Positions 16,899 through 60,800 of a stretch of DNA of 64,000 bases are shown one piece after another (positions within the stretch are counted from its first letter, which is position 1; every line of letters begins with the position of its first letter). The position numbers and the translations under genes were made by a program. This DNA is from Cloeon dipterum (taxonomy: Eukaryota; Arthropoda; Insecta; Ephemeroptera; Baetidae). The notes under the pieces were generated by a model that saw only the letters and a program-made list of their open reading frames with translations, made no database searches and was not told where the DNA came from. The stretch covers positions 5,580,001 through 5,644,000 of the forward strand of contig NC_088786.1 of assembly GCF_949628265.1 (NCBI RefSeq), written 5' to 3'.

Positions 16899-17345
16899 AC
16901 GTAATGTTATGCACTTCACGAAATAAATTGATTTTCTGAGAAATAATACATTTATTTCACAAAGATCTCGCTGTAATAATATTATATTATATGACCTATA
17001 TTCAGGGTCAATTGCAATAGCCTTTTTTAAGTATTATTTTCCCCTTTTAAATTGATTTTGAATAGTTTTCATATATGTTTCTATTATTATCACTCAGTTA
17101 AATAGCATCATTGAACAAACTCAATAGCGACACAAGACAAATATTTGCGTATAGTAAGTCTTCTCGAATGGTTGGATAGAATATAAAGGTATTAATAAAT
17201 TTTCAAAACAAATTCATTATATTATCTAAATGCATTAGAACGGAGAAAAAATATTGATTCTTTTCCACTATTCAATTTGTTCGAGTACCTTATGGCAGAC
17301 AGTTCTGACATTTCTCATCATTGGAAAATTTGTTGCCAAAGTGGA
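16899..17345. other. Spacer of the Gr tandem repeat (units 1/2)
   Basis: Contains the AATAAA signal of unit 1 (16922-16927). The following ~440 bp of AT-rich sequence recurs, with substitutions, between units 2 and 3 and partly between units 3 and 4, so the duplication unit includes the upstream and downstream flanks. No independent gene is seen. Confidence 0.7.
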
Positions 17346-18936
17346 ATGATGTTGTTTTTCAAAACAAAACAATTTACTTGGCTGCAAAAGATACATGCAG
17401 TTACAGGTTCGTAATACGGCCGCCGAATTAAATTAAAGCATAACAATTTTTCGGATTTAATAGGATTTTTCATACCTTGTAAAGGAACAGATGATAAGGC
17501 AGGGAGCTTGAATTCGGTGTGGGAGGTGTTTGTGATATGTTGCATTATCGCAACTCCGCTGTTAAATATAGAAAAATGGAAGAACCTTTTTGATACATCG
17601 ACTAAAGCGATTATTATGATCATTGCATCCGCGATTCTGCATCAAGTTCTGGTTATATTTCGTAGCATCAATATTATAACTAGCAAAAGGAAGTTGAGAA
17701 AATTACTCTCGAAATTGAATAGTAATCTAGACAGCTCCGAAAACAGGTATAAAACTAAAATTGATAAAAGTTCAAAAATGATATAATTTAATTTAATTCC
17801 AGCATAGACCAAGATAAAGTTAAGAGGGACGCATCCAAAATATTAGGAAAAATAGGAGCTGGCCAAATGATAATTCTTCTAAGCTCTCAAATGTTTATTT
17901 TTCTTGCTTTCCCTCAGTTTGAAAATGATACAAAATCCATAAAAAACGAATTCAATTTAACAACTGAGGAAATCTCAACCTCGTCTTATCTATGGGATAT
18001 ATTTATTTTGACATTTTCCTCCCTGGTAAATTTTATCATGGTAATCAAAATATTTGCCATAGACAGCTTCATTTATTTTCTCATTGTGTTGATTGTTAAA
18101 GAAATTCATTTGTTGCGCAAAAACTTTTCCTTCGGCAAGTTCATTTCTCCGTCATGCGAGAGCTTTTCCCAATGGGCACGGCAATTCGAAAGCATTAATA
18201 GGTTTCTTTCGATGAAAGATAGCGTTATACGAGTAATATGAACCAAGCACCTTTGCAGTTTTCTGGCCGATTTCAACGATTTGTTCTCCATGCAAATTTT
18301 ATTTGCATTGTTCGACCAAGTTCTCGCACTTTGTTTCACAGGATACATCGCCGCAAAGGTAAACAGTCAATATACGGAACAAAGTCAATCCGTTTCTCAT
18401 TTCGCAATACAGCTATTTTCTAGAACTGTTCTCCTAGCAATGGCAGGCGTCTTTTTAAATGGGCTTGCGCAGAATTTAATCTACTGCGTACTCGGTCAAT
18501 CAATAGCAAATGAGGTGAGTACGATAAATTTTTTTTAAACTCAAAATTTGGCAGAAAGATATAATCCTCGAAATCTTGCAAAGGAAAATTATGATTATTG
18601 TCCTTATTTACACAACAGTATATCACGAAACAAGCAAAATAATTACTAATTTGTAATTTTCAATTATTAAATATCTTACCGTTCGTAGCGATTTTTTAGC
18701 ATCTCTGTAAAAAATTTATTTGTAATATTTTTGACAAGGCGGACGAGCTGATGAGCCAGTTGTCATCTGGAACGTGGTCGAGACAGAATATGTTTCCGGT
18801 GTGCCATGTTTTGCTCTCCACCGTGAAGAGGAATTTCACTCTCTGCATTGGAAATTTTTTCACTCTGAACATGGAGTTCTTCGCGTCGGTAGTTGGAATT
18901 GTGTTCACTTATTTTATGATTTTGCGCCAGTTTTGA
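17346..18936 (+). CDS. Gustatory receptor, unit 2 of tandem array (intact, 380 aa)
   Basis: Exons 17346-17406, 17464-17746, 17803-18201, 18259-18358, 18413-18514 and 18739-18936 join in frame to 380 residues. Introns 1-4 are only about 54-57 nt long, and phases match unit 1. Two consecutive ATG codons open the frame; I chose the first because it gives the shared 61-nt exon 1. The protein keeps the family's last-exon block and ends TYFMILRQF. Predicted role: taste-type receptor channel in the dendrite of a chemosensory neuron, with the N terminus inside. It is closest to units 3 and 4. AATAAA lies at 18960. No lesion is seen. Confidence 0.87.
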
Positions 18937-19374
18937 ACGTAATGTTATGTACCTCACGAAATAAATTGATTTTCTGATAAATAATACATTTATTTCACAA
19001 AGATCACGCTGTAATAATAATAATATGACCTATATTCAAGGGCCTTTTTAAGTATTTAATTTCCCCTTTTATTTTGATTTTTAATAGTTTTTCATATTTG
19101 TTACTATTATTATCATTTAGTTAAATAGCTTTATTGGACAAACTAAACAGCAACACCAGGCAAATATTTGCGTATAGGTATAGTAATTCTTCTCGAATGG
19201 TTGGATAGAATATAAAGGTATTAATAAATTTTCAAAACAAATTCATTCTATTATCTAAATGCATTATAAGCGAGAAAAACTATTGATTCTCTTCCACTAT
19301 TCAATTTGTTCAAGTACCTTATGGCAGGCAGTTCTGACAATACTCATCATTGAAAAATTTGTTGCCATTGGAGA
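18937..19374. other. Spacer of the Gr tandem repeat (units 2/3)
   Basis: Repeat-unit flank, similar along most of its length to the spacer at 16899-17345, including the AATAAA signal at 18960-18965. Nothing else is recognised. Confidence 0.7.
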
Positions 19375-20966
19375 ATGATGTTGATTTTCAAAACCAAACA
19401 ATTTACTTGGTTGCAAAAGATAAATGCAGCTACAGGTTCGTAATAGGGGCACTAATTTGAATTATAACAAAACAATTATTCGTATTTAATAGGATTTTTC
19501 ATAACTTGTAAGGGAACAGATGTAAAGGCAGGGAGCTTGAATTCGGCGTGGGAGGTGTTAGTGATATGTTGCATGATCACAACTCCGCTGTTAAATATAA
19601 AAAATGGATTAACGTTCTTGATAAATCGAATACAGCGATTCATTTAATAAGTGCATCCGTGCATGTGCATAATTTTGTGATTATATTTCGTAGCATTAAT
19701 ATGATAACTAACAAAAGAAAACTAAGAAAATTTCTCTTAAAAGTGAATAGCATTCTTGAAAGCTCCGAAAACAGGTATGAAACTAAATTGAGTGAAGTTC
19801 ATAAATTATTTGATTTCACGTAATTCCAGCATTGACCAAGATAGAGTTAAGAGGGACGCATCCAAAATATTAGGAAAAATAGGAGTTGGCCAAGTGATAA
19901 TTATTTTAAGCTGTCAAACGTTTGTTTTTCTTGCTCTTTCTCATTTTGAAAATGATAAAAAATTTATGAAAAACGAATTCATTTTAGCCACCATGGAAAT
20001 CACAGACTCATCTAATCTTTGGGGCCAGATTTATTTAGCATTTTCTTCCCTGGTGAATATCCTCATGGGAATCAAAATATTTGCCATAGACAGCTTTATT
20101 TATTTTCTCATTGTGTTGATTGTCAAAGAAATTTATTTGCTGCGCAAACACTTTTCCTTCCGCAATTTCATCTCACCGTCATGCGAGAGCTTTTCCCAAT
20201 GGACACGGCAATTCGAAAGCATTAATAGGTTTCTTTGGACAAAAGGGAACGTAATACGAGTAATTTGAACCAGCATCTTTGCAGTTTCCTGGCCGATTTC
20301 AACGATTTATTCTCCATGCAAATTTTATTGGCAATGTTCGACCACATTCTCGCGCTTTGTTTCACAGGATACCTCATCGCAAAGGTAAACAGTCCATATA
20401 GGAACCGTCAGATCGTTTCTCATTTCGCAACATATTATAGTTTTTTTCGAAAACTGTTCTCCTAATTATGGCAAGCGTCTTTTTTAATGGGCTTACGCAG
20501 AATTTAATCTATTGTATACTCGGCCAATCAATTGCAAACGAGGTGAGTATGGTTATTTTTTTATTTAAATTCGAACTTTGGCATATTCATATCTGTTTCA
20601 AACCATTTATCCTGGATATCTTGCAAAGGCAAATTATAATTATTGACCTTATTTACACAAAAGTTGATCACAAAGCAAGCAAAAATTACTAATTTATAAT
20701 TTTCTAAATTCCCTACCGTTTGAAGTGAATTTTTGGGATCTCTGTAAAAATTATATTTTTTCTACAAGGCGGACGAGCTGATGAGCCAGTTGTCATCTGG
20801 AACGTGGTCGAGACAGAATATGTTTCCGGTGTGTCATGTTTTGCTCTCCACCGTAAAGAGGAATTTCACTCTCTGCATTGGAAATTTTTTCACTCTGAAC
20901 ATGGAGTTCTTCGCGTCGGTAGTTGGAATTGTGTTCACTTATTTCATGATTTTGCGCCAATTTTGA
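19375..20966 (+). pseudogene. Gustatory receptor, unit 3, frameshifted in exon 2
   Basis: The six-exon layout is preserved: 19375-19435, 19493-19774, 19830-20228, 20285-20384, 20441-20542 and 20769-20966. All splice sites are present and exons 3-6 are open. Exon 2 is 282 nt, while the closest paralogues have 283 and 289, which differ from each other by whole codons. After an A-run at about 19600-19605 one base is missing compared with unit 4, so the first third of exon 2 is in one frame and the rest in another. The shifted frame reaches a stop shortly after the lesion. This is the only disabling change I found, so the copy is either a very young pseudogene or a sequencing error in a homopolymer. 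The last exon encodes the usual TYFMILRQF end. Confidence 0.75.
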
Positions 20967-21517
20967 TCCAACGATATTCTGTATCGAAAGTAGTGAACCA
21001 ATAACCAGAAACAGCCGATGGAAAGAATTAAATAATGCTTTTTTTCATAAAATGTGAAACCCTAAAATTATGCATGAAATTAGTTTTTTCAGTATCCGTG
21101 CAGATTAAATTAAAATTGACATGACTTCTTTCTCGTCCACAAAGTCACGAAATTTTCTTCCGGTTTTTGTTGCCTATAATGGTTAGTATATACCTCAGGG
21201 ACAGTAGCAATAGTTTTTTTTTTTTAATATTTAATATCCCCTTTTTAATTGATTTTTACTATTTTTTCATATATATTATTATCATTCAGTTAAATAGCAA
21301 CACGGACAAATATGTGTAGGCTTATAGTAAGTTTTCTCAAATGCTTGATGCAATGGAAAGTATATTAATCAATTTTCTAAACAACTTCATTTTATTCTAA
21401 AAGCATTAGGACGGAGTAAAAATATTGATTCTCTTCCACCATCCAATTTGTTCGAGTATCTTATGACAGACAGTTTTGACATTATTTCATCATTTAAAAA
21501 TTTGTTACCAAAGTGGA
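20967..21517. other. Spacer of the Gr tandem repeat (units 3/4), partly replaced
   Basis: The first ~220 bp after the unit 3 stop does not match the corresponding flanks of units 1, 2 and 4; similarity resumes near 21220. This insertion or replacement explains why this repeat period is about 100 bp longer than the others. The AATAAA present after units 1 and 2 is missing at the equivalent place. Confidence 0.6.
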
Positions 21518-23083
21518 ATGATGTTGATTTTCAAAACCAAACAATTCAAATGGCTGCAAAAGATAAATGCAGCTACAGGTTCGTAATAGCGCCGCCGATT
21601 TGAGTTAAAAAATAACAATAATTTTTCGTATTTAATAGGATTTTTCATACCTTGTAAGGAAGCAGATGATGCAAAGGCAGGGATATGCTTGAACTCGGCT
21701 TGGGAGGTGTTAGTGATATGTTGCATTATCGCAACTCCACTGTTAAATATAAAAAACTGGAAGAGTGTTTTTGATAATTCACCTACTATGATTATTATAA
21801 TCAGTACATCCATGATTCTGCACCATGTTTTGGTTATATTTCGTAGCATCGATATGATAACTAACAAAAGGAAATTAAGAAAATTACTCTCGAAATTGAA
21901 TAGCATACTTGAAAGCTCCGAAAACAGGTATAAAACTAAAATTGATAAAAGTTCAAAAATGATATAATTTAATTTAATTCCAGCATTGACCAAGATAAAG
22001 TTAAGAGGGACGCATCCAAAATATTAGGAAAAATAGGAGCTGGCCAAGTGATAATTATTTTGAGCTGTCAAACTTTATTCTTACTTGCTTTGCCATATTT
22101 TGAAAAAGATGCAAAATCCTCAAAAAACGAATTCATTTCAGCCACCAAGAAAATTTCAAACCCATCTAATCTTTGGGGTCAATTTTTTTTAACATTTTCC
22201 TCCCTGGTAAATTCTATCATGGTAATCAAAATATTTGCCATAGACAGCTTCATTTATTTCCTCATCGTGTTGATTGTCAAAGAAATTCATTTGCTGCGCA
22301 AAAGCTTTTCTTACCGAAAGTTAATTTCACCGTCATGCAAGAGCTTTTCCCTATGGGCACTGCAATTCGAAAGCATTAATAGGTTTCTTTCGACGAAAGG
22401 TAGCGTAATACGAGTAATTTGAACCAAGCATCTTTGCAGTTTCCTGGCCGATTTCAACGATTTGTTCTCCATGCAAATCTTATTGGCAATGTTCGACCAA
22501 GTTCTCGCGCTTTGTTTCACAGGATACATCACTGCAAAGGTAAACAGTCAATTTATAGGAACAAAGACAATCCGTTTCTCATTTTGCATTATAGTATTTT
22601 ACTAGAACTGTTCTCCTAATAATGGCAAGTGTCTTTTTTAATGGGCTTGCGCAGAATTTAATCTACTGCGTACTCGGTCAATCAATAGCAAACGAGGTGA
22701 GTATGGTAATTTTTTAAACTCAAACATTCAAATTTGTTTCAAAGCATTCATCCTGGAAATCTTGCAAAGGCAAATTATAATTATTTACCTTATTTGCACA
22801 ACAATATATGTACAAAATTACTAATTTATAATTTTCTAAATTCCTTACCGCTTAAAGTAATTTATTGCAATATTTTTTTGACAAGGCCGACGAGCTGATG
22901 AGCCAGTTGTCATCTGGAACGTGGTCGAGACAGAATATGTTTCCGGTGTGCCATGTTTTGCTCTCCACCGTGAAGAGGAATTTTACTCTCTGCATTGGAA
23001 ATTTTTTCACGCTGAACATGGAGTTCTTCGCAACAGTAATTGGAATTGTGTTCACTTATTTCATGATTTTGCGTCAGTTCTGA
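21518..23083 (+). CDS. Gustatory receptor, unit 4 of tandem array (intact, 382 aa)
   Basis: Exons 21518-21578, 21639-21927, 21984-22382, 22440-22539, 22595-22696 and 22886-23083 join in frame to 382 residues, with the shared phases 1,2,2,0,0. Exon 2 is 289 nt against 283 in unit 2, a two-codon difference near its start. The product is a seven-helix gustatory receptor ending TYFMILRQF. It is the closest match to units 2 and 3 and served as reference for the unit 3 frameshift. Its 3' flank is cut short: about 75 bp after the stop the sequence passes directly into unit 5 coding sequence. A possible AATAAA lies at 23129. Confidence 0.87.
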
Positions 23084-23174
23084 ACGTTATGTAATGTACC
23101 TCACGTAATATATATCGATTTTCTGATAAATAAAACATTCATTTCACAAAGATCACGCTGTAATTATATGGTCC

Positions 23175-24542
23175 ATGATACCCTTCCTGGAGGACGTTGC
23201 CCGGCGAATAAGCGTCAGGGCGGTAGGACCCACCGTGTTCACTATGCTGCTTTACGCAACGGCTCTCACCAGATATACCCACGCTATCGTTGCGAGGAAA
23301 AAGTTTTGTTCGCTGTTCGCTCAAGTTAACTCGATCATCAACTGCAAGCCCTTTGAGTGCGCAGCTAAATATTAAGTTTATCTTTTTTTTCAAATACTTG
23401 TGCAATGATTAAAACCAGTCACGATTGAAAGCAAAGTTTACTAAAAGAGCCATGCATGTACAAGAAATAAGTGACTTTTTTCACCGCGCTCTCTAAAGAA
23501 GTGAAAAATGAAGTTTTTTCCACGAAACACGACTGAAACACGATTTTACTTTTTTATACAGGAGCCATCAAAAGGAGAATCTGGATAGCACGTGCAAGAG
23601 GGTGCGAAACATGCTTTTTGCACAATTGCCTTTGTTCGTGTTGGCCAACTCTGCGATTTCATATTTCGGATACAAAATCACAACTAACCGAGAGGGGTCT
23701 AACGTGTTTAACCAAATGGAACTCGAGCTGCTAGGACGGGCTGGACAACCTGAATTGTGGACACCGAGAGAAACGCTGTCCGTTTTCCTCAACGTGATTT
23801 TAAGCTACATGGTACCACTCAAGTTAATCACCTTGGACGCTCTGCTGCATTTGTTCTACGTATTTATTTGCGACCAAGTAGATTTTCTAGAAGACCAGTT
23901 CGACCTCATCACAAAAACTGGAAGCGCTGAAGCACAAGCGACTTTGCAAGAGTGGCTTTCGCTCTTTTCAAAAGTGAAACGGTCTCCATAGCCTTTTCTT
24001 TCAATAAAACAAAAATAATATTAATAACGCTTTCAGCCTGATGATTGATGTAAATGACGCATTTGCCTTTCAAACCGTATCTTTGTAACTATCAAATATG
24101 GCCATCATATGCTTTGCAGCTTATACCTCGGCAAAGGTGAATTCGAATATCAGATTTTTTAAATTTTTAATCAATATATGTTTACAGATCTTCTCGCTTT
24201 TCTTTTTTGTGACCATGATTGTCTTGACGCTGTTCTCTGTTTTGCAAACTCTTCTTTTCTGCACCAGTGGTCAAAAATTATTGAATTCAGTACGTATTTG
24301 ATGGCTATATAGATAGAGAGTCTGTATTTTGTTTTAAAATTTAGGCCGACAAGCTTTCAAGCCGACTGGCGAATATCTCGTTGGCGGACCAGCCGCTCGT
24401 TTCAGTGCATCACATTTTACTGGTAGAAACACAGCGGTCTTTTGCTGTTCGAGGAGGACCATTTTTTACGCTCAGCTTGGAATTCTTCGCGACTATCATT
24501 GGTGCTGTTTTCACTTACTTCATGGTTCTCATACAAATATAG
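23175..24542 (+). pseudogene. Gustatory receptor, unit 5, 5'-truncated with nonsense codon
   Basis: Receptor remains in the same exon scheme: part of exon 2 (23175-23356), exon 3 (23562-23981), exon 4 (24037-24136, exactly 100 nt as in the paralogues), exon 5 (24188-24289, 102 nt) and exon 6 (24345-24542, 198 nt). Exon 1 and roughly the first third of exon 2, which would encode the first membrane helix, are absent. The sequence upstream is the 3' flank of unit 4. Exon 4 has an in-frame TAA at 24086-24088. The exon 2 donor would be a weak gtgcgc at 23357. The C terminus ends TYFMVLIQI, so the final F of the motif is lost. The protein is divergent from both subfamilies. AATAAA at 24702. Confidence 0.78.
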
Positions 24543-24958
24543 ATCACCGCGGTATCGATGCAGATTTTACTACAAAACTACGCCTCTTCATGAGATTAAT
24601 TTTTCTCCTCTAGCATTAAAAGTGGACAGATTGGAAAAACTTTATGAATTAACGTTTTTGTTACTACCGAGAAACGTAAAGATGAAAAATGAAAAGGATT
24701 GAATAAAATTACGGGAATATATTTTTCTTAATTTGTTTGTACAGCAATACCGAAAAACGAACGCTTTTAAGATCCAATAAAACCATTTTGAATTCGATTC
24801 AATAAGTGTAAATAAATTACTTTTTGAATTAAGTAAATTGCACCTGGCTATTACCATATTGATTTTAAATTTCATTCCATTATTTTATTTGTTACTTCAC
24901 ATTTTTTCGCATTTGCTACTCTTTCGCTACCCGTGCGAGTTAGATCAACATCAGCACA
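24543..24958. other. Gr spacer between units 5 and 6
   Basis: AT-rich flank with a polyadenylation-type AATAAA at 24702-24707. It has no resemblance to the spacers of units 1-4 and no gene. Confidence 0.6.
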
Positions 24959-26455
24959 ATGATTTCTGTATATGACAACTTGAAATTCAAAGTTTTTCTG
25001 TTAATTAGTGCAGTGTTTGGTATGATAATGAGATCTTTCTAAAATTTTAAGAATTTTCAATTCATAGAAGTTATACAGGTGTGTGGATTCCAAGAAACTC
25101 AAAACAGTTGAAATACTTCAGCATCAAACGCATTTGGGAAGCATTTCTCTTAATCATTCTAGTTTTGGATATGTGGCTGATGTTGCCTTTTTACGAAGAC
25201 ATGATACAGAAGCTTAGCAGAGCAGGCGAGCTCATGTCAAATGTTGTCTTTCTAATCGGTCAGATTTTGCGAAGGACTCAAATCTCATTGAGGAAAAAGC
25301 AACTCGTTCTGATTTTTTCCAAAGCAGACAAACTATTAAACATACAGAAAATGAGGTGAACAAATATTTTCACTTAAGAAATGTCGTGTTCAAATGATAT
25401 AATTATTTCAGATTGCAGCAAAAGAAAATATTGATCGGCGCGTGCAATCTTTTGGGGATGACATGCATCGCTCAATTCATGGAGTACTTTGTCCTCGTGG
25501 CAATAATGTTGATGCAATTTATAAATGTTGTTTTACCCGAAATGATGCTGTCAGAAAAAAATAATGGCACAAATTCATCGAGTCCTCATCAACAGAATAG
25601 AGTGAATTTAGACAAATACATGCATCCTGAAAGTTTAACGATAAGAGAAGCTATCGCTGCACAACTCAACTTACGAATTATGATATTTCTTTGGACATCG
25701 ATAATATTTTTGGACAACATACTGTACTTCATTTGCTACCTTCTTTTCGTGGAAATCAAAGCACTGAAGGATGAGCTAGCACGCATTAAAATCGACACAA
25801 GATCCACGGTAACGATTGGAACACATATTGAGGCAACGGGCGATTTAATGCACTGGATCCAGTTTTTTAAAGATGTCAAGATGTATAATATATAGTACTT
25901 GGCGAACGATGAATTTTTTCTCACCATATATTTTTCAGCTTTGCTGCTTTGGTGAATGACTATTTCTCGTTCCAATTTACAATTACCATTGCCCTGGACT
26001 TGCTTAATCTCTGTTTCGCTGCATTTACAGCCGCCGTAGTATGTATCCCGACATACATAACATGTGTAGAATTCCATTTACGTGAATTGGCATTTCAATT
26101 TTTAGATTCGTTACATACCACTGATGACCGCAATGTTATGCACTTCACTAATAAATCTGCAGCGAGTTGTGATGCTCTGCTTCTACGGTCAGAGAGTGCA
26201 AACAGAAGTAAAATTAATCCCGTCTATTTTTTAGCATTAAAACTTTTGAAAATTCAGTCAAAACAACTGAGCAACCTGTTATCGACCAAAACCTGGAGCA
26301 ACCCGGTGCTCGTGTCGACTTTTCACTTGATGGCCGATGACGCGCAGAACAATTTCCTCCTCCGAGGTGGTCCGTTCTTTACCCTCAACATGGAGTTCCT
26401 CGCTTCTGTAGTCGGAATCGTGGTCACCTATTTTATTGTCCTACTGCAATTATAA
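24959..26455 (+). CDS. Gustatory receptor, unit 6 (intact, 402 aa)
   Basis: Exons 24959-25019, 25079-25355, 25412-25882, 25939-26038, 26106-26207 and 26258-26455 join to 402 residues. Exons 1, 4, 5 and 6 have exactly the same lengths (61, 100, 102, 198 nt) and phases as units 1-4. Exon 3 is longer (471 nt) because of a larger loop with NGTNSS-type glycosylation sites. The exon 3 donor is shifted by a base change but still in phase (AAGAT before gtataa). The protein ends TYFIVLLQL, a conservative version of the TYhhhhhQF signature. It forms a subfamily with unit 7; the two share the last exon closely. AATAAA at 26494. Predicted taste or contact chemoreceptor; ligand unknown. Confidence 0.86.
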
Positions 26456-26844
26456 TTATGCAAAGGTCTAGTTTGACTGCACTGCAAGGAAAAAATAAAT
26501 AATTTGATTCCTTTGCAAGAGTGATTACACTATAAAGAAAAAATACTCAGCGCACCAAAGGATTTCATTCAAATATATGTGTTGCGTTTTAAACTTCTCG
26601 AGAAAAGCATGCGAAAAAAGCCTAACCAAATAACATATTTTTAAATTAAATTTTTTGCATTTAAAATATTTACAATAAAGCAAACTTTAGCAAATGGCAC
26701 GAAAATTCGGCGTTTCTTTGCTTCGTATTTAATCAACGTAAATTGATGTCTCATAATAATCGTAAAAGTTTTTCAATTTAGTTCCACTCAGCTTGTGCGC
26801 TTGTATGCAGATCAATTGCAGTACGCGTGAGCTATCAAGACACA
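26456..26844. other. Gr spacer between units 6 and 7
   Basis: AT-rich DNA containing the unit 6 polyadenylation signal at 26494-26499. No other feature is recognised. Confidence 0.6.
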
Positions 26845-28323
26845 ATGGTTTCCATCCACGAAAACGTAAAATTCAACGTCCTTTTGAAATTAAATGCTGT
26901 ATTTGGTATGAGAAAGGAAATTTTCAAAAATGACTAATAATGCGTGAAATTTTATTTTTAGGCTTGTGGATTCCTAATAACCTAAAAGAACTCAAATCAA
27001 TCAGCTTTCAGCGAATTTGGGAATTAATTTTCCCAATTATTCTTCTCGTGAATTTATGGTTAACAGTGCCATTTTACAAAGACATGCTAAAGGAATTCAG
27101 CAGAACTGGCGAGCTTATGATTAATTCCGTGGTTCAAATCAGCCAAATTCTACTAAGGTGTCACTACTTGTTGAAAAAAAGGCAAATCGTACTCGTTTTA
27201 GCGAAAGTAGACAAGCTAATGAAGGAACAGGCAACAAGGTTTTTTACTTTCAACGAAAAAGCCAAAATTGATATCTCAAAATTTCAGGGACAGGCAGAAG
27301 GAAATTATGAATAGCGTGAGCAACCGCATGGCAAAGACTTGCATTGTGCAATTACTTCAAAACATTTTTACCCTAGCAGTCGTGTCATATACTTTTCAGG
27401 AAGCAATACATTCTTATGACCATCAAAATGCTGGAAATGGGACCAGCACCGCGTCTTATATACCCGATTATGCTAAGAAATTTGGCCACCCTGAAAATTT
27501 TACGATTAGAGAATCAATTGGCTTAATTTCTAATTCCTCGGTGAACTTAACTCTGACAGTTGCAGCAGTTTTCATGGATAACATTATATATTTCTTCTGC
27601 TACTTTTTGTCCCTGCAAATAAGTGCTCTAAAGGAAGAATTAGCAAACATAAAAATCGATAAAAGCTCAACCAAAACTGTTGGACCACAAATCGAGGCAA
27701 CGGGTGATCTGCTGCACTGGATTAGGTTTTTTGCAGAAGTCAAGAGGTTAGGACACAAAATAAAACAAACCAACAGTAATTTTTGTATAGCCTGAAACTT
27801 TCAGCTTGGCAACAGCTGTGAATGACTTTTTCTTGTTCCACTTCACGGTGACAGTTGCCCTGGACGTGTTGGCCCTCTGTTTCTCAGCGTTCACTGCTGC
27901 TGCGGTAATAAATTGTATTTTATTCTAATTGTCGTCTCTAAAATCACGATAACTTAATGCCACGTAAAAGGCTCACTTCGCACCGATGATGATTGCAATG
28001 ATATGCTATTCGGTGAAAAGCTGGCAAAGAATTGCGATGCTCTGCTATTATGGTCAAAGAGTGCAAAATGGAGTAATGCTTTATTAATTAGTTATTAACT
28101 ATTTCATCACTTCTTCAATCAGTCCAACCAACTAAGGAACCAGTTGCTATCAACAAAAACGTGGAGCAACCCGGTACTCGTGTCGACTTTTCACTTGATG
28201 GCCGATGACGCGCAAAGAAATTTCCTCCTCCGAGGCGGCCCTTTTTTCACCCTCAACATGGAGTTTTTTGCTTCTGTAATCGGGATTGTTGTCACCTATT
28301 TCATTGTTCTTTTACAATTGTAA
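26845..28323 (+). CDS. Gustatory receptor, unit 7 (intact, 399 aa)
   Basis: Exons 26845-26905, 26962-27238, 27288-27746, 27805-27904, 27971-28072 and 28123-28323 join in frame to 399 residues. Exon 2 has the same length as in unit 6 (277 nt), exon 5 again 102 nt, and exon 6 one extra codon. The seven-helix protein ends TYFIVLLQL. A long loop in exon 3 carries several N-x-S/T sites, as in unit 6. The stop codon is followed after five bases by a MITE (28328-28770), so the 3' untranslated region and poly(A) site of this gene probably come from transposon sequence. It is the last member of the cluster on this side. Confidence 0.86.
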
Positions 28324-40871: not shown

Positions 40872-43080
40872 ATGATGCTAGCAACTGAGCGTGTGATTCA
40901 CGAGCCCAGCAGCATGTCAGCTGAGAAACTTAGGTGAGGAAAATGTGCCTAAACCAAAGAAATTGTTAAATTCATAAATATTATGGAATAATCAGGCGGC
41001 AACGTTTGGAAGGGGTGAAGCGGAGCCTGATCGAGGCTGGGGCACCACCCGACCTGGATGTGGTGCTGAAGCCGCTGTTGCGGAAGGCGCGTCAGGTCCA
41101 CGCTGCCTACATCTGCGACAACAGGTACGGCGTGTGCGAGGTGTGGTACAAACTGATGCTGATGCTGGGTGCCACCGAGAGCAATGTGACCAACATCAAG
41201 GCTGACTGGCAGGCGTTCGCCAACCTCCTCGGCTACGACAGGGACACCATCAGGGTAAACAATCCTAAATTGATAAATTTGATGCAGGCTTGATTTAAAT
41301 ATTTCCTCATGCAGTCCATCCAGAACGTATTCAAGGGCGTCGAAGACCCGGTCACCATCACACTCATCGCGTTCATGCAGAAAAGTGATGCCTCGCTAGA
41401 CAAAATCATCGAGGCACTGCAGGCCATGAAGAGGGAGGACATCCTCGAGCAAATCAGTGGTCCATTATCAGGTTTGCAACCCCACAAAAAATATACCTTA
41501 GGTTTTTGTTAATTGGTGTTTATGATTTCAGATCTGTGCGAGAAGGTTATTCAAGAAAATACGGACCAAACCATGGTCTCCAGTGACAGTGGCTTTTCTG
41601 AAGGTATGCTTTCCTGAATAGATTTGCTTATTTTTTTTTAAACCAGAAACATCAAGCAAACAAATGTTTTATTTGCTTGATAAACACCTCCCTTATTTCA
41701 TAATTGAGCACCTGAAAATCAGACCTTGAAGATTGATATTTTTAGTAACCAAATTTCCATTGAATTTAATCAGCAGAGAACTCGGTGGTGATAAAGCCTC
41801 GCTTCGTGCTGCCTGTGCCGTGTCTGCTGCGCAGCAAGGAGGAACTCAACTTCAGCCTGATCTACTCGACGTTCAAGAGTCAGCAGCAGGTGTTATCAAC
41901 GTGCGCCAAACAGGTGGAGGCGGACAGAGACGTGCGCGAGCACAGCGTGATGGTGGCCGCAGCCGACGAGGGCTACGGGAACGACGCCGCGCCGCCTCCG
42001 CTTCCTCAGGGCGGTGAACAGTTGGGGGCTGGCCAGAGAAGCGCCAACTTTGACACCACCGTTCTGCTGACCTTTGTCGAGGACGGTCGGGAAGCGGCCT
42101 ATGAGGTCGCGCGGGCTCTGCGCGCCACCACCAACAGCCAGGGACAGCATGTTGGCGTCGTCATTCTGGAGGAGAATGAGAGCATCGTCAACGTGGACCA
42201 GGACGCCTTTGTCAGGGGAGTCTTTGAACAGGTGAATATTATCATCATTACCACCCGACCAAAATTGTCTATTACGAAATTTTATTTTGCTTATTCCTAC
42301 CGACAATCAATTTCTCGCTTCTGGTCTTTAAAATGTTTTTATTTTTATATTTGAAGCTATTAGAAAAGCCAGGGCTCATTTAATTTTGCAATGCTCCAAA
42401 GTGCGGAGAGAAAAAAGCCTAAAATGGACACCAATTTTGGGATTTTACGCATTTTTAATGTTGTGTTATTAACAAAATGGTCATGTTGGATGGCAATTTA
42501 GTCTGAGATTATGAAATAATTAATTATATTGTGAAACCAATGGCAATATTTTTTAATATAATTTAAATTTTGACCAACCAACATTAAATATTTACGATCT
42601 AATTATCAAATCCATGTATTAAGGAACAAATTGCGCAATGTCGCAGAAAACCCACCGTTAATCTGTTATTTTATTTTATTTTTTCTGAAATATGTGTTGA
42701 TTAATAGCCAATTTTTCAATTCATTCGACTTGACTCGTTAAAATTATGGCAATCCACCAAAACGAAATGTTCATTATTGCTTCCAGGTGGATTATGTTGT
42801 TCCGATTCTGAGTGCAGATTACGCTGCGACTGTGAAGCCAAACAGTCTGTTAGATGTTTCCGGCAGCCTGGACGCGCAGTACGCTAGATATATCTACAAG
42901 CTGATTCAGAATTACTACGTTGAAATGGGCTGCATGAACAAGAAGATCAGGTCGATCGTGCCGACGGGTACGGACAACTCTACCATCACGTACCTGACCA
43001 GTGATCCCGTTTTCAAGGCTCGGAAACTAATGCGTGACTGCGAGAAATTCGCCGATCTGATCTGCCGCAGGAAAAGCTAG
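40872..43080 (+). CDS. ACT1/CIKS-like adaptor with death domain and SEFIR domain
   Basis: Six exons: 40872-40933, 40996-41254, 41315-41471, 41532-41603, 41774-42231 and 42787-43080, joining to 433 residues (419 if the third in-frame ATG at 40914 is used; a TAA precedes 40872). Residues ~85-157 look like a death domain: DWQAFANLLG, spaced hydrophobics, a helix with P, then KREDILEQI, close in pattern to MyD88-type death domains. Residues ~278-425 look like a SEFIR domain: VLLTFVEDG strand (box 1), VVILEE strand, VDYVVPILSADY (box 2) and YIYKLIQNYYVEMGCMNKK, the part most like vertebrate ACT1/TRAF3IP2. SEFIR domains bind IL-17 receptor tails. The ~110-residue linker contains a serine/acidic patch and a proline run. 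Vertebrate ACT1 has no death domain, so the pairing suggests a bridge between IL-17-like and Toll/MyD88-like signalling. That function is inference. Confidence 0.8.
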
Positions 43081-44033: not shown

Positions 44034-44041
44034 AGCACGCT

Positions 44042-44345
44042 CAGCCCCTGCTCACTCATATGGCGCGAAAATGCGCCAGCTAAGAAGTTCTGCAGCCACA
44101 CACAGGTGGCAGGTCGATAGCTTTTTAAGCCAATCAGAGGCCGTCTCGGAGTTTGTTGCCGGTTACGCCCACGGGAAGAGGGAGGCGTAGAGGGGCGTAT
44201 GTGCGGAGTTTTTCGTGGGCGTAACAGGCAACTAACTCCGAGACGGCCTCTGATTGGCTTAAAAAGCTATCGACCTGCCACCTGTGTGTGGCTGCAGAAC
44301 TTCTTAGCTGGCTCATTTTCGCGCCATATGAGTGAGCAGGGGCTG
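44042..44345. mobile_element. Hairpin hAT-type MITE, 304 bp, exact 8-bp target duplication
   Basis: Two 132-bp arms, 44042-44173 and 44214-44345, are inverted copies with only three mismatches, around a 40-bp spacer. The element begins CAGCCCCTGCTCACTC and ends with its complement. It is bracketed by the exact direct repeat AGCACGCT at 44034-44041 and 44346-44353. The 8-bp duplication and CA..TG tips point to the hAT superfamily. The near-identical arms mean a recent insertion or ongoing arm homogenisation. It lies about 140 bp before the NOP16 start codon and each arm carries a CCAAT box (44130-44134 and, inverted, 44253-44257). Confidence 0.9.
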
Positions 44346-44488
44346 AGCACGCTTCAGCAAGGAGAAGGAAGCAAGCCGCGATCTGTGTCTGTGGGCATAC
44401 AATACACTAAATCGCACGTGGAATTTAAATATTTGAAGACTTTTTACTTATTTTAACGGTCTAAAGACTTAAGATTTAAGTTTTCAAA

Positions 44489-45347
44489 ATGCCAAAAGTT
44501 AGGAAAGTAGCTAGGAGAAAGAAGTTCAGACATACCGTCAACAGGAAAAAGCTTAACAGAAAGAAGAAGAGGCTGCCCAACATTCCCTGGTAAATCATCA
44601 ACTGTTTATGTACTTTTTCTTTCCTAAACATGCAAAACTTAACTTACATTACGTTAACAGCGAGGCTATCAAAGAGGCATGGGACAGCACCAGGTCTGTC
44701 AACGTCAACTTGCGCCAAATGGGCCTGTCCAGTGATCCTAATGTGGCCTTAGGACTCCCCAATTCTAAGGTAGTACCTTATCTTTCAATTAATAGGACTT
44801 TTGCTATTTTAGTTTGTATTTTTGCCTACTAAAAAATGAATATCATAATTATGAGTGTTCGATCTACCAATTAAAGTAACCAATTTTAATTTCTTTTCCC
44901 AGAAAAAGCTCGCAGAAGCTAGACAGTTCAACTTGGAAGAAAAGGTGCCCAAAAAGAAGAAATCAGCTCCAGTTGAAGATCCATTTCCGAAATTGGCAAT
45001 CGCTGAGCGGTTGGAAAGAGAGTCCAAGGAGAGGAAGAGGAAGACCCTGAGGCTGTCCACAATGCAGGTCGACAAATGTGCCTACTACATTGAGAAGTAT
45101 GGCAACGACTACAAGGTACGAACTGAGCTCATCAGCTTTTAGACCTGTGTGTAAATTAAAACCACCTTTATTTTAGGCGATGACACGAGACAAAATGAAT
45201 TATGACCAGAACACGTGGAAGCAGCTGAGGGCGCAAATCAAGAAATTCATGGAGTGCAAAGAACAGTGGGACGAGTATTGGAAGTCGAGGGACATGGAGG
45301 CGCCTGAAAGGACTGTCGTTAAAGAGGCAATGGAGGATTCTGATTAA
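44489..45347 (+). CDS. NOP16: Nucleolar protein 16 (60S ribosome biogenesis)
   Basis: Four exons, 44489-44589, 44661-44769, 44903-45115 and 45177-45347, join in frame to 197 residues, slightly longer than the ~180 residues of vertebrate NOP16. The N terminus MPKVRKVARRKKFRHTVNRK and the following basic RKKKRLPNIPW segment match the family's conserved start, which acts as a nuclear/nucleolar signal. Exon 2 carries the conserved AWDSTRSVNVNLRQMGLSSD block. The C-terminal exon holds the conserved YDQNTWKQL..KI..F region. In yeast and vertebrates NOP16 is a constituent of pre-60S particles. The ATG follows directly on an A-rich leader. The 3' end faces the 3' end of the ARL gene, 520 bp away. Confidence 0.93.
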
Positions 45348-45866
45348 TTTTATATATGTTTACCTTAAATATACGAACAATTAACTCAGATTTTTTATCA
45401 TTATTTTGATTTCTTAATTTTCTCACCTAATTTAAATTTAATAATGCATGCTTCCAAGTCAGCGTGTGTTGTTTTGTCGCCAGTTAATTCAATGAACTGA
45501 TATAGAAATTATGGCCAAAACGGAATTTTGTCATTACTTTGCTTCTTTATTCAGATTTAAAAACAAGCTCCAGGGAGCGTTTACATAACGTTTTATCAAC
45601 AGTTCACTTTATTTAAGCTTTGAACGGCATATTGCAGATTTTCATAACTTCTTAAAGAAATTCAAGCCTTGAAATCGTCACAGAGAGAAATGATTGCGTA
45701 TAGTACAAAAGTCTTAAACTAAAGTCATTTCAAAATTAAAATGATATTAAAATTACAGAACTTTACACTTAGAGTAACATCTATTTTGATCAAAATGGAA
45801 ATGCATCACGGAAACAAGTAGACGCGATATAAAGAGAGATGCTCCGTTTCCCGACAGATTCGTTCG
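45348..45866. other. Convergent 3' intergenic region NOP16 / ARL
   Basis: AT-rich space between two converging genes. The complement of AATAAA at 45546-45551 is a likely poly(A) signal for the minus-strand ARL gene, about 315 nt beyond its stop. The two transcripts may overlap. Confidence 0.55.
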
Positions 45867-49990: not shown

Positions 49991-51722
49991 TCACAAATAA
50001 TGCTCTTCGATTATTCGAGCGATATCGTCAGCAACCCCGGCCAGGCCGACATTCTGCATGTTCATCAAGATGGCCACGCAGATTCCTCTGGGCGGGGTAC
50101 TTCTGGAGCAGTCTTTGATATCCCTGTCCACGGGCTTGATCAGCAAAACGCTACTGGCCCCAACAGCGGCACCAGTGTGGAAGGCAGAGAAGGGCTGCAC
50201 GTCGCCGCCTCCAGTTGTCCCATACTCGGCCACAAAAGGCACCACCTGCCAGCCCAGTCCGTAACCATTTTCTCGGTACCTAACAAGAGTAAGTAAGCAA
50301 GCACAATTAAATTCAATCCATGGTTAAATTAAAATTGTTGTTGGTGGTTTCACCTTTGGCTCTTGTTCTTTTGCTTGGTCACTGGCACGACGGTCCACAT
50401 TTCACGGACCGTTTCAGGGTTGAGAAAGCCTGGCGGCAGACCAGGAACGCTAATTTTTTGATCTGTAGCGGACGTTTCAGTCATGCTTGGCTGCCACTGA
50501 TAGGAATAGAGCATTGCGTTGCCGAATTTGAGCAGGTCCCCTACTGTTGAGACGAAACCACCTCCAGCCCACTTGTACGAGTTGTCTGAGTAAGGGACAT
50601 TTGCAAGGCGGCCGTTTTTCTTGGTCAGGTAATAGCTGCCAAGTGAGATTAATTGATGAATAGTTCTACATCCACTTTGAACCTACTTTGCCCTGTTGTA
50701 AATAATTGGTTCTGGCTCGTCCAGCCTGGTTTTGTGCAAGCCTAATTGGCTGAAGAACTTCTTGGCGTGTTTCGTGAACTCTTCCTTGCTGGCGCCTTCC
50801 ACCACCGCACTAACCAGAGTCCAACCGTGAGTCGTGTAAAGGTATTCAGTTCCGGGCTTGGAAAGAAGTTCGTCCCCATCGAACAGTTTTAGAGCCTTCT
50901 CAACAGACTCAAACCTCTCCTTGTTGTACACCTCCTTCTCTCTGGTGCTCTTTTCCTTCTTGGACTCCGGCTCGGACAGCTCATTTTCCGACTGTTCCCC
51001 TTTTTTCACGTAATGCCTGATGCCTCCAATGTGACTAAGTATCATTCTTGTTGTAATGTCCACCTTGGGAAATCATTTTTTAATTCTGATCTTTTTAAAT
51101 CAAGAATTAAGCACCTTTTCGCCGTTGAAGGATTTTTTTGGGAAACTAGGCACGTACTCTTGGACCGGTTTGTCGATATCCAGTTTACCGTCCTGCCACA
51201 GTTTCGCCACCATGGCCATTGTCATGCTTTTGCTAATGCTGGCGATTCTCATCACGGTTTCTTCGTGGCACAATGTTCGCGTCTCAACATTCGCCAATCC
51301 AATTCCTACGTACAAAAGAGCATTAATTAAGGGTTTTACACGTAACATTTACAATTTCACATCAGAAAAAAAAAATTAAAATACATACCTAACCATTGAC
51401 GCAACAGATTTTCAGAGTTAATTTTGAATCATCTTTTTCCAAACATACCTTCTTTCCAAACGACTTTCCCGTCGACGCTGACTCCAATGACAACCCCAGG
51501 AGCGCCGACCTCGCATTTAATCTTCAAAAGAGCATCCCTGGCCTTTTCCTTGGCCAACTCCAATTTTCGACTGGCATTTTTTGACGGCGTTTTTTCGTAC
51601 GGCGAGGCGCAATCGGCAAAGACAGGCCGGAAATCGTTCCCTTTGGTGGGCTCACTGTAAAAGTTGGCAAGGACAGCGGCCGAACCGGCGGCCACCGTGA
51701 CTAGCAATCTCGTGTGGTTCAT
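49991..51722 (-). CDS. LACTB: Serine beta-lactamase-like protein LACTB, mitochondrial
   Basis: Five exons on the minus strand, 51722-51449, 51305-51115, 51063-50687, 50635-50354 and 50279-49991, join in frame to 470 residues (vertebrate LACTB ~550). The N terminus has a hydrophobic stretch consistent with mitochondrial import. Family landmarks in order: KCEVGAPGVVIGVSVDGK, the catalytic SISK (114-117, the SxxK of class C beta-lactamase/PBP folds), ILSHIGGIRHY, a charged K/E insert, YLYTTHGWTLVSAVVEGAS, DNSYKWAGGGF, HTG (about 409-411, equivalent to the KTG box) and PPRGICVAILMNMQNVGL. In mammals LACTB is an intermembrane-space filament-forming protease-like protein influencing lipid metabolism. 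All catalytic motifs are intact. The N-terminal region is shorter than in vertebrates. Confidence 0.95.
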
Positions 51723-54851: not shown

Positions 54852-57800
54852 TCAGGTCGTATCGAGATGTGCGGGTTCGACTTTAGCAGATTTGGTCAGG
54901 GTAAAAACGGGGAGGAAGGGGGCCCCCGAGGGTCGAGGGGTGTCCCCGAAGGTGAGGGTGGCGGAGGTGGGGGCGGAGACGAGGGGCAGCTCCCAGAAGG
55001 GCTCGTCATCGAAGTAGACAGGTGGATTTCCGACCAACACCATCAACATGCCTATTAAACACCACAGAATGGCGCACAAAATTCAAATTAAACATTAATC
55101 ATTTTTACAATTATCAAGTACCGTAACTAATGAAATTATTGAAATTATCTGTGGAAAGAAAACCTAAATTTTCAATACTGAATCTTGTAAAGTTATAAAT
55201 ATTTGAAGCTTATAAATTAAAAGAAAACAATAATAATTAAATAAATAAAAATTATAAGAAATTTTGAAAAAAGTCGGCAAAATAGCCAAAATAAATTATT
55301 TATTTTTGTCATTAAAATATGATTTTTTAATTAAATGAGGTAAAATTTAGCGTTTTTGCTCTGACTAAACCTTTCTGATAATTTAATCAAAAACCTTTCT
55401 AATAAAATGCATTTAAAAAATAGAAATGCAGCGTAATACTGTTTTTTACAGACCAATTTGTGATGTTTTCAATTCAAACAATAAAGAAAAATAAAACTCG
55501 TAGACCTAGCTTACTGTATTATCAATTCTAAGCAATTTTTAACCAAAATATATCGAAAATAAATACCTGTGAGGAGTCCTCCAATGACAGCGACGACAAA
55601 TGTCACGAGCAGCGCGATGAGCTGGAAGCCGGCCTGTCGGAGGGCGCTTCTGTTGTCGCCGGGCTCGAGGAACATGAGCACCTCGTTGACGTCAGTCAGG
55701 GCGCTGGTGTTGTTCATCGGCGCCCTGGCCGGAAACTGCAGGAACAGGCTCTCGCCGTACTCCTTCTCGGAGGCCAGCGCTGCCATCAGCGCGCCCACGA
55801 AGCCCGCCAGCACCCCCGGCATTCCGTGCAAATTGTGCACGCCGCACGTGTCGTGCAGCTTCAGCGCTCGGTGCAAGGCTGGCTGCAAAATAAATATAAA
55901 CTCATAAAATTTCTTTTAAACACAAGTAGAATCAGAAATAAATTTCATAAATTTTAACCCTGAAAATTGGAGGGAATTATTATTTTAGCCTTTTTATTAA
56001 TGGAGCTTTACACTGATAAATTGCAGGTCCAACTCAGCAGAAATCATGTATTAGTTTTGGGTTTACAACGTATACACAAAGTTATTTTATTTTTTAATAA
56101 GAAAAAAATTATGAAAATAATTCTATTAAGAAATTTTCACCTTTTTTAGTATCTCTAAAGGGGTATGTGAAATTTTAGAAATTCCACGTTTTTTTTATCT
56201 GTTTTCTATACCTGAATGTATTTGTATCCGATGACTGAAAGAGTTCCCGCCGCAATTCCGACCGCCACCGCGCCGTACGGGTAGAGCATCATGTCCGCCG
56301 CGGTGCCCACGGCCACGCCGCCCGCCAACGTCGAATTTTGAATGTGCACCTGCAATAGAAAATTTATAAGTACATTTCTGTGATTTCATTTTAGCTATAA
56401 ATTGGTATTATTTTAGGTACTTTAGGAGAAATGAATATTAATCTAATTTTTAATCCCGCGGCTATTCTAAAAGACGGGGGAGAGAGCAATTTGAAAATTA
56501 AATATTTTATGTTAAAAGCAATTAACAGAAATAAATTCACGTCTATGTGTTCAACCTAAATAAAAAATTATAATTAAGTTTAACTAAAAAAATAAATTGA
56601 GATTATTTTTAGAGGTTAAAATTGCTTACAAAAAATGTGAAATACTTTAGGACCGGATAAGATCAGCAAAACTCTCAAGAAAAAATTTAATCTTGCATTT
56701 CAGTTTTCTGATAAGAAGAATAATTATATAAGCCTGAGACCATGTTGAATTTGTTGTCGTTGGCGACGAGTGAGGAGACGGCGAACGCGGTGACGCAGCA
56801 CGCGGACAGCGAGAAGTACGTGTTGATGACGGCGCGGTACTGGTTGTCGCCCGTAACCAGGGCGGCGTTGAACGACGGCCAGAACACCCACAGAAACAGT
56901 GTACCTGAAATACAAATTCAATCTAGAGTTTATGATGGAGGCGAAAATTAAAAAAAAAAACAAATGGGGATTTCATTATTTGGGAAATTGATTGACTTCA
57001 TGTTTTATTGTTAGAAATAACAATTCTAACAATTTTGAGGACATTTTGAAATTCATGCAGAGCTTTTTCCAAAATTTCAGATTTTTTATAATTATTCCTG
57101 CTCTCAGCTGATTAAAAAAAATCCAAACTTCCTCTTTCAAGCCCTATATTTTAATGGTGAAAAAAATATCTACGGGTCAGCAACCTTCTTCTGAGAGACC
57201 GTTATTATAGAATTAGATTGGTTGGAGGAAATTTGGTTACCTACTGAGGACCTGAGGAGACAATTTATTTGAACTACGCAGGAACTAAATGGTTTATTTA
57301 CATTTTATTTAAATGAGTATGACCTTGCGAAACTGGTTTTGTCTCCACAGATATTTTAGGGAGGGTCCTTTTAAAAACAAAAACACTCTTAAAAGCAAAC
57401 CAGTTCTAAAAGTACAATTTTCTGATCCGCTCTCTATGATTTGTTTCCTCTAAAAGATAGTTAAAAGAGCCAACCTGTTTCCAATCTGTAAAATCACTTT
57501 CTAAAAATATAAATAGCCAAGCTGAATACTGTAACAAATTTAAATAAAGTTAAAAATCATCCAATTTGTAATTTTCTGAAAACCATTTGCTTATAAATCG
57601 CTAAAAATAAAAAAAACGCTATGATTTTCCTCCTAAAACTCGTCAAGGAGAATCGTTTGAGACCAAGAGGGCCTGGTTCAGGGCTCAAAATAGAATTTGG
57701 AAATGTCTTAAATCAAGTTTTCTGCACTTAAAAATTAGTAACTTGGGCTCCTAAAAATCCGAAAGAGCTTCATTTATTTAGAAACGCATAAAATAGGCCC

Positions 57801-60800
57801 CCATGCAGCCGTCCTAGCCAACCCTCTCCACCTCCAGCTGCCGCCCCCAGGCGCGTACACCACAAAACACCTTTAGATTTTTTTTTTAATTTCCCTTTGT
57901 GTCTGCAAAATAGTCCCCTACTCAAATTTCTCAGATTTTTTGAAAAAGTCCCAAATGTTAAGACCACAAATGAACAATCTCTGCAGTATTAGACATGTCA
58001 AATTCATTTTAAGATTTTTTTAAATTTTAATTAAAATTATTTGGTGCTTTTTTAAAACAAGGTTCTAAATAAGAGTAATGATAATTATTACCTATCATTG
58101 CGAAGAGGTCCGAGTGGTACTCTGCGGCCTCGTTGCTGAAATCAGGGTTGTCCTTCCTGCGGAGTGCCAGGCTGACTGCCAGTCCAAAGTAGGCACCGAA
58201 CACGTGCACGTACATGGAGCCGCCAGCGTCCACGGCCTTGGCATGGAACGGACAAACAAAATAAATAAATAAATTTGCGGAACTGAGCAATTTTTGGTCA
58301 CCTTGAGGACGTTCATGCCGAACCACTCGTTGGTGGCGAACAAGGCGATTTCGATAAGAGACATTACGATCAACTGCAGCGGCGTCGTCTTGCCGATTAC
58401 GGCGCCGAGCGAGATGATCACGGCCACGGTCGCAAAGTCCGCACCCAGCATGCTGAAAGTATTGAACAATAATTTGTTTAAGAGATTAGTTTTTTTCTAT
58501 GTAAAATTTATTTTTGGGTTTTAATGTAAAAAAAAGGGAATGATTCTTCAAAACCCCATAAAATCCTTATTTCAACAAAGAGTTTTCTAAAAACATTTTA
58601 TACACCGTTGGATATGGCCAAGCACATTAAATTTCGGAGGAAAACATTGAAATTTGAAGATTTACTGCAGAAAATGCCCTTTGATTTTTTTTAAAATAAA
58701 TTTCAATTTGTTTATGATGATTTTTAAAGCAAAAAATAAATGTAAAAATCTGTCTTGTTGCTTTCATACGCAGTGCACATGTCATGAATAATAAGATCTC
58801 TGGTTTAAAATGTATCCAGATCAAGCCAAGCAATATGATGAAAAATGCAAACGTTCATGTCACCTCGGTATTTGTTCCGAGAATTGCGATCATTTCATTG
58901 ATGCACGTAGTGCCCAAAGGAAAACGAACTTAACACGTGTCCGAGATCGCGCTGTTTGATTCACCTTCTCCTGGCACGCAAAAACAATTATTTTTGTCGG
59001 GTCTACGGGTTGTAAGCCACGCATGTGCAAAGAGAAATTTTCAAGAATTTATTTTAATTGTGAGAGCCGTTATGTACATATAGTCGACTGAAACGAAAAT
59101 TGCGCATCAGGCAGGCTGCTTGATTTGCAAATAAGAAGCACGAACTCATTGTTTTTTATTTAAAAATAATAACGGTTTCGTGAATGAATTTAATTTCAAA
59201 CTGTTTTGTGGGTTGGTCAAGGGCATAAAAAGCACAGCATTTTTCAAAAGAGCCCGATTTTTAAATTGTAAAAACTCCACTCCAGACGTTTTTAGCCTGA
59301 TTGTTTATGCTCTCTATAAATTGGCTATGTCAAAACTCAACGATTTGGCGGCCTTTCAATTCTACAATTTATTTCCGCAAGAAAAAAGATTTAGGCGATT
59401 GTAATTTGCTTCATAATTAACCATTCGTGCAGCTGTTTCCTTTTCTTCTCCAAATCGCTGCAACTAATTGACCAATTTAATTCTAGGTCTTGCGATTTTA
59501 CCTTGTGATGCCGACGTTGATGCGTCCGTTGTCCATCTCGAAGAAGCCGCGCGCCAGGATGGCCCACTGCAGGCTCAGCGCCGACACCAGGAAGTTGAAG
59601 CCGACCGCACTGTAGCCGTACTTCTTCAGAAAGGTCATCAAAAAGCCCACGCCCACGAACACCATTACGTGCACGTCCTGGAACACTGCACAGAACATTT
59701 CTTGTTTAAAAAATATAATCAGAAAATTATTTACTCAGAAGAAAGGTTTTTTTTGTTACGCCGAAACTAAATCGTGTAGAAATTAGGCTGCAATAAAATA
59801 GTCAGTTTCATTTTAATTTTTAATTTAATATATATACTCTGCAATGGGTAAAATTTGAATCAGGATTGAGGAAAATTTCAAATTTCGTCAAATTTCTCAA
59901 AATATGTATTAAATTATATTTTGCTTGATTTCGATTCCTCTAAAACGGTGTGCGAATTTATAAGCTAAACTACTCTCTGGCTAAATAATTAAGGCATTTT
60001 AATAAAGAGATATTACAAATTTTGGAGCTGATTTTCTCAGGAAATTAAATCGGTGCTTTGGGAGTAATAAAACTCTTTTTTAAACAATAAAATGTGAAAA
60101 TCTGTCGATAAAAATGACTCAACACAGCAATAAAACAATTCTCTGTCACTGCTTTGATAGTAAATTTGAATAAGAGTAGGGAAAGTATATCTGGTGCGTT
60201 GTCAAACAAATTTTATTCTCTGCTTTACAATTGCAAAGCAGTTTATTTTGATTTGAAATTATTTTCCAGCCACGGCATACATATTTTCCGCTCAGCTGCT
60301 CAACCTCGCTGCGTATTTGATGCAAACGTATCACGACCGGAAACTGAATCACAACGCGGCACCGACTAAAAATATATATTCCACTGCGCGTGTACTATTT
60401 TACTTATTCTAGGTTGAAAAATCTAACTTAAATTAATAGAAAATAGAGCATAGATTTTTTTACCAATTCAATTACATATAATTGAAATAAAAATTAAGTA
60501 TATAGTTTTTATTAGATATAATTTGGATTTTCTATAAAAAAGAAAGAACTGCTCCGTTAATCTTAAAATTTGGGGCATAGGTTTTTACGGATTCGTGCTT
60601 TTTTTAATTTTCTGTCGTAGTTTGCTGTGTATAAAATATTGTATGAGAATTTTTAAATTCGTGTGATTTACAAATTAAATTTATTCTTATTTTATTTCAT
60701 TTATTTCGTTGTATAATTTTAAATTCTCCAGTACGAAAAAGTGACATCTAAATATTGAGAGAGATAATAAGTGAGCGTTTAAGTGAATACATGTTTTGGA

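Follow-up and report, generated by a model that had tools for sequence, protein, structure and literature searches.

We analyzed a window of 64,000 nucleotides from the insect Cloeon dipterum (contig NC_088786.1, positions 5,580,001 to 5,644,000 of the forward strand) and found in it a gene of six exons on the plus strand, at 40872-43080. It encodes 432 amino acids (aa) in a single frame, from the ATG at 40872 to a stop codon ending at 43080. We call it the adaptor gene. Its exons and the domains of its product are as follows, with positions counted from the first letter of the window.

40872..40933, + strand, exon 1 (aa 1-20), with the ATG at 40872 and the donor GTGAGG
40996..41254, + strand, exon 2 (aa 21-107), N-terminal part of the death domain; exon matched by tblastn
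41315..41471, + strand, exon 3 (aa 108-159), C-terminal part of the death domain; PF00531 match in the genome scan
41532..41603, + strand, exon 4 (aa 160-183), linker, with a DSGFS motif at aa 178
41777..42231, + strand, exon 5 (aa 184-335), linker and first half of the probable SEFIR domain
42787..43080, + strand, exon 6 (aa 336-432 and stop), second half of the probable SEFIR domain, with the ACT1-like segment
41189..41458 (41189-41254 and 41315-41458, with an intron between), + strand, death domain (aa 86-155), PF00531
42040..43077 (42040-42231 and 42787-43077, with an intron between), + strand, probable SEFIR domain (aa 272-432), supported by semi-global alignment with ACT1

GT-AG boundaries are present at all five introns, which measure 62, 60, 60, 173 and 555 bases, and the GC content at codon positions 1, 2 and 3 is 0.57, 0.38 and 0.73, against 0.27-0.32 in the introns. 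The adaptor gene is real and intact, and the gene model is well beyond chance. An earlier note on this DNA had described one clean six-exon frame, which the length of the frame, the GT-AG introns and the third-position GC bore out. The alternative of two unrelated genes was rejected, as one frame appears to span all six GT-AG exons with no sign of a split. We searched the genome (190.1 Mb in 10 contigs) by tblastn at E<=10, and because all six matches were the adaptor gene's own exons, no second copy was detected.

The death domain was recognized by Pfam at aa 86-155 (PF00531, 42.6 bits against a cut-off of 22.6, E 6.7e-11). In the scan of the genome, exon 3 reached 21.8 bits alone and 33.5 bits together with its neighbours. 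A search of the PDB returned the MyD88 entries 3mop and 6i3n as the nearest chains, with E of about 1e-3 for the whole protein and 2.4e-4 for the domain alone; p75NTR came next after human MyD88. We also compared the domain with nine death domains in a shuffle test, in which human MyD88 came out closest (z 16.8), followed by p75NTR (12.7). Among the death domains of the genome itself, whose gene names except Pelle are a reading of the frames and not database matches, and several of which were joined by hand, the closest were the IMD-like (8.8), THOC1-like (6.6), ankyrin-like (4.0) and UNC5-like (3.8) domains. The same test placed it not close to the genome's MyD88 (1.2), an unnamed death domain (0.7) or Pelle (-0.5). 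Judged by sequence, the death domain is certain, and its earlier description as MyD88/IRAK-like agrees with the Pfam score and with MyD88 as its nearest relative in the PDB.

The C-terminal half gave mixed signals. At E<=10, Pfam reported no PF08357 (SEFIR) match in the full-length adaptor, in its last 161 aa or in either exon piece, and it found no TIR match in the adaptor. The absent report is not equivalent to a zero score, because the filters of HMMER drop most weak matches. As yardsticks, human ACT1 scored 135 bits with the SEFIR profile and the genome's own IL-17 receptor 47.7 bits; when the genome was scanned with PF08357, nothing was found at the default cut-off, and at E<=10 only one half of the receptor was recovered. 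The Pfam check proposed for the two domains was thus positive for PF00531 and without a report for PF08357.

We then turned the HMMER filters off and searched 556 genome frames and 5000 shuffles with ACT1. The top entry was the adaptor's own exon 6 (E 0.68), and the full-length adaptor came fifth (E 4.1), below that exon, one shuffle and two unrelated frames, apparently copies of a single repeat. With a three-sequence SEFIR profile, two shuffles outranked the adaptor, which had E 2.4. In the opposite direction, ACT1 came out ahead of all 553 frames and 5000 shuffles, though with an E of 0.99. A profile of the adaptor and ACT1 retrieved from the PDB no IL-17 receptor and no SEFIR beyond ACT1, and the two PDB matches of the C-terminal half alone were both at chance level. 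Single-sequence hhalign gave ACT1 as the best of six (P 0.024), with a probability of only 2%.

PDB entry 9ot1 includes the SEFIR domain of human ACT1. Aligned with it, the final 161 aa of the adaptor reached z 5.6 in local alignment (0/5000 shuffles as good, P about 4e-4) and z 6.3 in semi-global alignment (0/5000). For comparison, ACT1 and the genome's receptor, both SEFIR domains accepted by Pfam, gave a semi-global z of 4.5 (2/3000 shuffles). The tail was less close to that receptor (semi-global z 2.7, 47/3000; local z 1.6, 259/3000), and it reached z 4.5 (6/2000) against a bacterial SEFIR part, where neither half alone attains z 2. Over the whole domain, all five TIRs compared (three Toll TIRs, the genome's MyD88 and human MyD88) stayed at z 1.5 or below. 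The adaptor-ACT1 alignment is colinear across the entire domain, with 19% identity between the C-terminal half and the ACT1 SEFIR in MAFFT.

When the tail was split at the intron, exon 6 gave z 6.5 against ACT1 (1/5000), and the exon-5 part, which holds the proposed box 1, gave z -0.8; against the genome's IL-17 receptor the exon-5 part reached only z 2.1. The ACT1 signal therefore lies in exon 6 and not in exon 5, so that of the SEFIR features named in the earlier note, box 2 and the ACT1-type segment stand and box 1 does not: box 1 is placed by topology only and has no support of its own. Folded alone, exon 6 gave a model with a pLDDT of 41, in which a strand is followed by a short helix, a second helix, a strand and a helix. 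The model fits the second half of a SEFIR domain, but it is too weak to count.

Taking the alignments together, we consider the C-terminal half to be a probable SEFIR domain. The main alternative is that this half is unrelated or lineage-specific and that its likeness to ACT1 is a chance match in exon 6, as the silence of Pfam, the lack of signal in the exon-5 half and HMMER E-values of about 1 or worse would suggest. We regard this as unlikely, since the shuffle P (0/5000 in both local and semi-global alignment) stays small when nine targets are allowed for, the colinearity extends over the entire domain, and this genome encodes both an IL-17 ligand and a SEFIR receptor; the strand-helix-strand-helix order of the low-confidence exon 6 model also fits, weakly.

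TIR and SEFIR are related folds according to passages of Flynn et al. 2020 (PMC7190641), and MyD88 shares with the adaptor the layout of a death domain followed by an alpha/beta tail. A second alternative is that the adaptor is MyD88 itself, or a paralogue of it whose TIR has diverged strongly, and acts in the Toll pathway. MyD88 supplies the death domains nearest to that of the adaptor in the PDB, and exon 6 alone scored about equally with the genome's MyD88 TIR (z 1.8), one Toll TIR (1.9) and the receptor SEFIR (1.9). Against this, the tail as a whole gave z 1.3 with the genome's MyD88 TIR, -0.9 with the human MyD88 TIR and 1.5 or less with the three Toll TIRs. We searched the genome with human MyD88 and obtained seven matches, five of them at TIR genes that we read as Toll-type with leucine-rich repeats. 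A MyD88 gene lies at C1:4914459-4915170 (-), where a death-domain match and a TIR match adjoin, each of them weak (E 0.75 and 0.21). After splicing by hand, this gene gave TIR_2 at 33.8 bits, and its TIR matched the human MyD88 TIR with z 29.3; Pfam did not report a match for its death domain. At a further weak TIR match, at C3:23.9 Mb, no gene was seen.

With a MyD88 of death domain and TIR on C1, the adaptor gene is an additional death-domain adaptor. We rejected its identity with MyD88, on the grounds that the genome has a distinct MyD88 gene and that the tail, taken as a whole, does not resemble a TIR, and we hold the wider MyD88 or paralogue explanation to be quite improbable. The assignment to SEFIR rather than TIR made in the earlier note is probably right; the scores with the five TIRs were low, and Pfam reported no TIR match.

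The adaptor also differs from the receptors of the pathway. To IL-17 receptors it is related only weakly in its tail, and unlike them it has a death domain and lacks a membrane segment: the highest 19-residue Kyte-Doolittle mean in the adaptor is 1.02. Pfam found no kinase domain in it, and Pelle is a separate gene.

The earlier note had suggested a search of the same genome for IL-17 ligands and SEFIR receptors, and both were found. Scanning with PF06083 gave four matches, of which the best, at C5:16592120-16592332 (-), scored 27.4 bits as an open frame against a cut-off of 24 and the other three fell under the cut-off. The SEFIR receptor lies at C1:25.457-25.460 Mb (-) and, after correct splicing, reached the 47.7 bits given above with E 2.6e-12. 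It has a mildly hydrophobic start and a hydrophobic segment (Kyte-Doolittle 3.27), and its ectodomain has no Pfam match. Searching the genome with its membrane and cytoplasmic part yielded no second clear SEFIR receptor, with one further match at E 1.43. A Pelle/IRAK gene is present at C4:20.695 Mb (-), with Death at 37 bits and kinase at 62.3 bits for a hand-joined fragment.

Two MATH matches point to TRAF genes, and the gene at C3:7938261 (+), at 93.2 bits, appears TRAF6-like by our reading; its zf-TRAF exon scored 24.9 bits, just under the cut-off of 27. The query with human MALT1 had a sole match, at C2:10473294-10473488 (-) with E 2.9e-4, which marks a MALT1-type paracaspase. The gene (C2:10465000-10474900, -) has a caspase exon at 35.7 bits and, upstream, two exons with Ig domains, and no Pfam match was found for its presumed death-domain N-terminus. 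All of these partner counts are lower bounds, because the genome scan reads exon by exon.

In a genome scan for the caspase family (PF00656), 66 matches were obtained at E<=1, many of them short or with stops, and the MALT1-type locus on C2 was within this list. Ten of 20 PF00656 loci retrieved were inspected; they carried caspase-like frames and no paracaspase. Several of the 66 matches lie near the C4 end (C4:34600000-36050000), and the matches as a whole look like an expanded, perhaps partly decayed, caspase-like family.

The joining of a death domain to SEFIR, which the earlier note had pointed out, is not unusual. According to passages of Flynn et al. 2020 (PMC7190641), most lineages have ACT1 orthologues with a death domain, which was lost in amniotes, and the DD-SEFIR arrangement is likened to the DD-TIR of MyD88. 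In excerpts of PMC6321704, a placozoan death-SEFIR protein is described and likened to CIKS/CIKSL and MyD88. Like these non-amniote DD-SEFIR proteins (ACT1, ACTL-1 and CIKS/CIKSL), the adaptor is a soluble protein that combines a death domain with a probable SEFIR-type tail behind it, and as in their systems an IL-17 ligand, a SEFIR receptor, IRAK/Pelle and MALT1 occur in the same genome. The adaptor differs in its origin from an insect and in a probable SEFIR too diverged for Pfam; it was compared with them by description. With vertebrate ACT1 (TRAF3IP2; 9ot1), its C-terminal half can be aligned end to end at the z of 6.3 given above. In contrast to amniote ACT1, which lacks a death domain by the same passages of PMC7190641, the adaptor has one. 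With MyD88 it shares the nearest death domain among PDB sequences and a layout of a death domain with a TIR/SEFIR-like tail, whereas its tail as a whole is not TIR-like and the genome's MyD88 is a separate gene.

We propose that the adaptor gene encodes the orthologue of ACT1 (TRAF3IP2/CIKS) in its ancestral form with a death domain, and that this protein acts in solution in the cytoplasm, as an adaptor in a pathway like that of C. elegans; we assign this reading a probability of roughly 0.75. The parts found in the genome are those of the IL-17-ACTL-1-IRAK-MALT-1 pathway of the nematode. The likely order of events would be as follows. On binding of IL-17, the receptor SEFIR would recruit the adaptor by SEFIR-SEFIR contact, and the clustered death domains of the adaptor may in turn gather MALT1 and, by death-domain contact, Pelle/IRAK, so that a complex similar to the Myddosome would form.

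TRAF6 would be reached through Pelle and not by direct binding of the adaptor. The TRAF6-binding motif has the pattern P-x-E-x-x-(aromatic/acidic), and no match to it was found in the 432 aa, which sets the adaptor apart from vertebrate ACT1 and weakly favours the route to TRAF6 via Pelle. A loose TRAF2/3-type pattern has one match, SKEE at aa 203. This assembly of receptor, adaptor, Pelle and MALT1 is modelled on the proposal for ACTL-1 in C. elegans. That the adaptor is instead a decoy or negative regulator, which would bind the SEFIR receptor and cap the Pelle/MALT1 complex, is very improbable: the absent TRAF6-type motif and the divergence of its death domain from the genome's Pelle and MyD88 would suit such a role, but ACTL-1 is a positive component in passages of PMC7190641, and no decoy feature, such as loss of the death domain, was seen.

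Part of this scheme is already known. According to the passages of Flynn et al. 2020 (PMC7190641), C. elegans ACTL-1 co-precipitates in a complex with IRAK (PIK-1) and MALT-1, and an ACTL-1-type complex is speculated to be the original mode of IL-17 receptor signalling in non-amniotes. For the claim that the adaptor may link an IL-17-like receptor to Pelle, the link itself is plausible with the partner genes in the genome, but the fusion and the IRAK route are not new. What is new is an insect member alongside the other pathway parts. In the open-licence literature, insect ACT1 is undescribed in the consulted portions of PMC7190641, PMC6321704, PMC11797021, PMC5457136, PMC8353272, PMC4517768, PMC5978004 and PMC4172062; automatic CIKS-like annotations of insect genes may exist.

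The adaptor draws interest from two surveys that found little or no IL-17 in the insects they covered: the relevant parts of one report the family missing from the three insects sampled (PMC4517768), and those of the other say that there was no earlier description of IL-17 for Insecta and report a weak domain of this type in Drosophila sequences and none in Apis (PMC8353272). It is also of interest as a candidate upstream partner for an arthropod paracaspase. For a nematode, the question of the upstream partner was settled with ACTL-1 (Flynn 2020, in the passages of PMC7190641), and with genes for the ligand, SEFIR receptor, adaptor, Pelle, a TRAF6-like protein and a MALT1-type paracaspase in one genome, the same question becomes testable in an insect. 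Moreover, death-domain complexes led by a SEFIR protein and by a TIR protein (MyD88) can be compared in one animal. More tentatively, this insect might have a working IL-17 pathway in which the adaptor nucleates a complex of receptor, Pelle and MALT1 parallel to the Toll Myddosome, and the absence of IL-17 from insects might then reflect loss in some later lineages and not across the insects.

The neighbourhood of the adaptor gene in the window contains several other features. Downstream, a Nop16-like ribosome biogenesis gene lies at 44480-45350 (+), with 21.7 bits against a cut-off of 25. Between the two genes is an inverted repeat (44034-44353), whose two arms of 140 bases each are 96% complementary and enclose a spacer of 40 bases; it looks like a fold-back or MITE-type element. 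At 15300-27800 (+) several open frames resemble one another and follow in a row, with the look of a chemoreceptor gene array; of the two that were scanned, one matched 7tm_7 weakly (17.4 bits against a cut-off of 26.6) and the other had no match. On the minus strand, a beta-lactamase-like gene (perhaps LACTB) at 50353-51072 (-) has an exon at 50686-51072 with 33 bits, and an ammonium transporter of the Rh/Amt type at 55514-58496 (-) has an exon at 55514-55915 with 42.8 bits.
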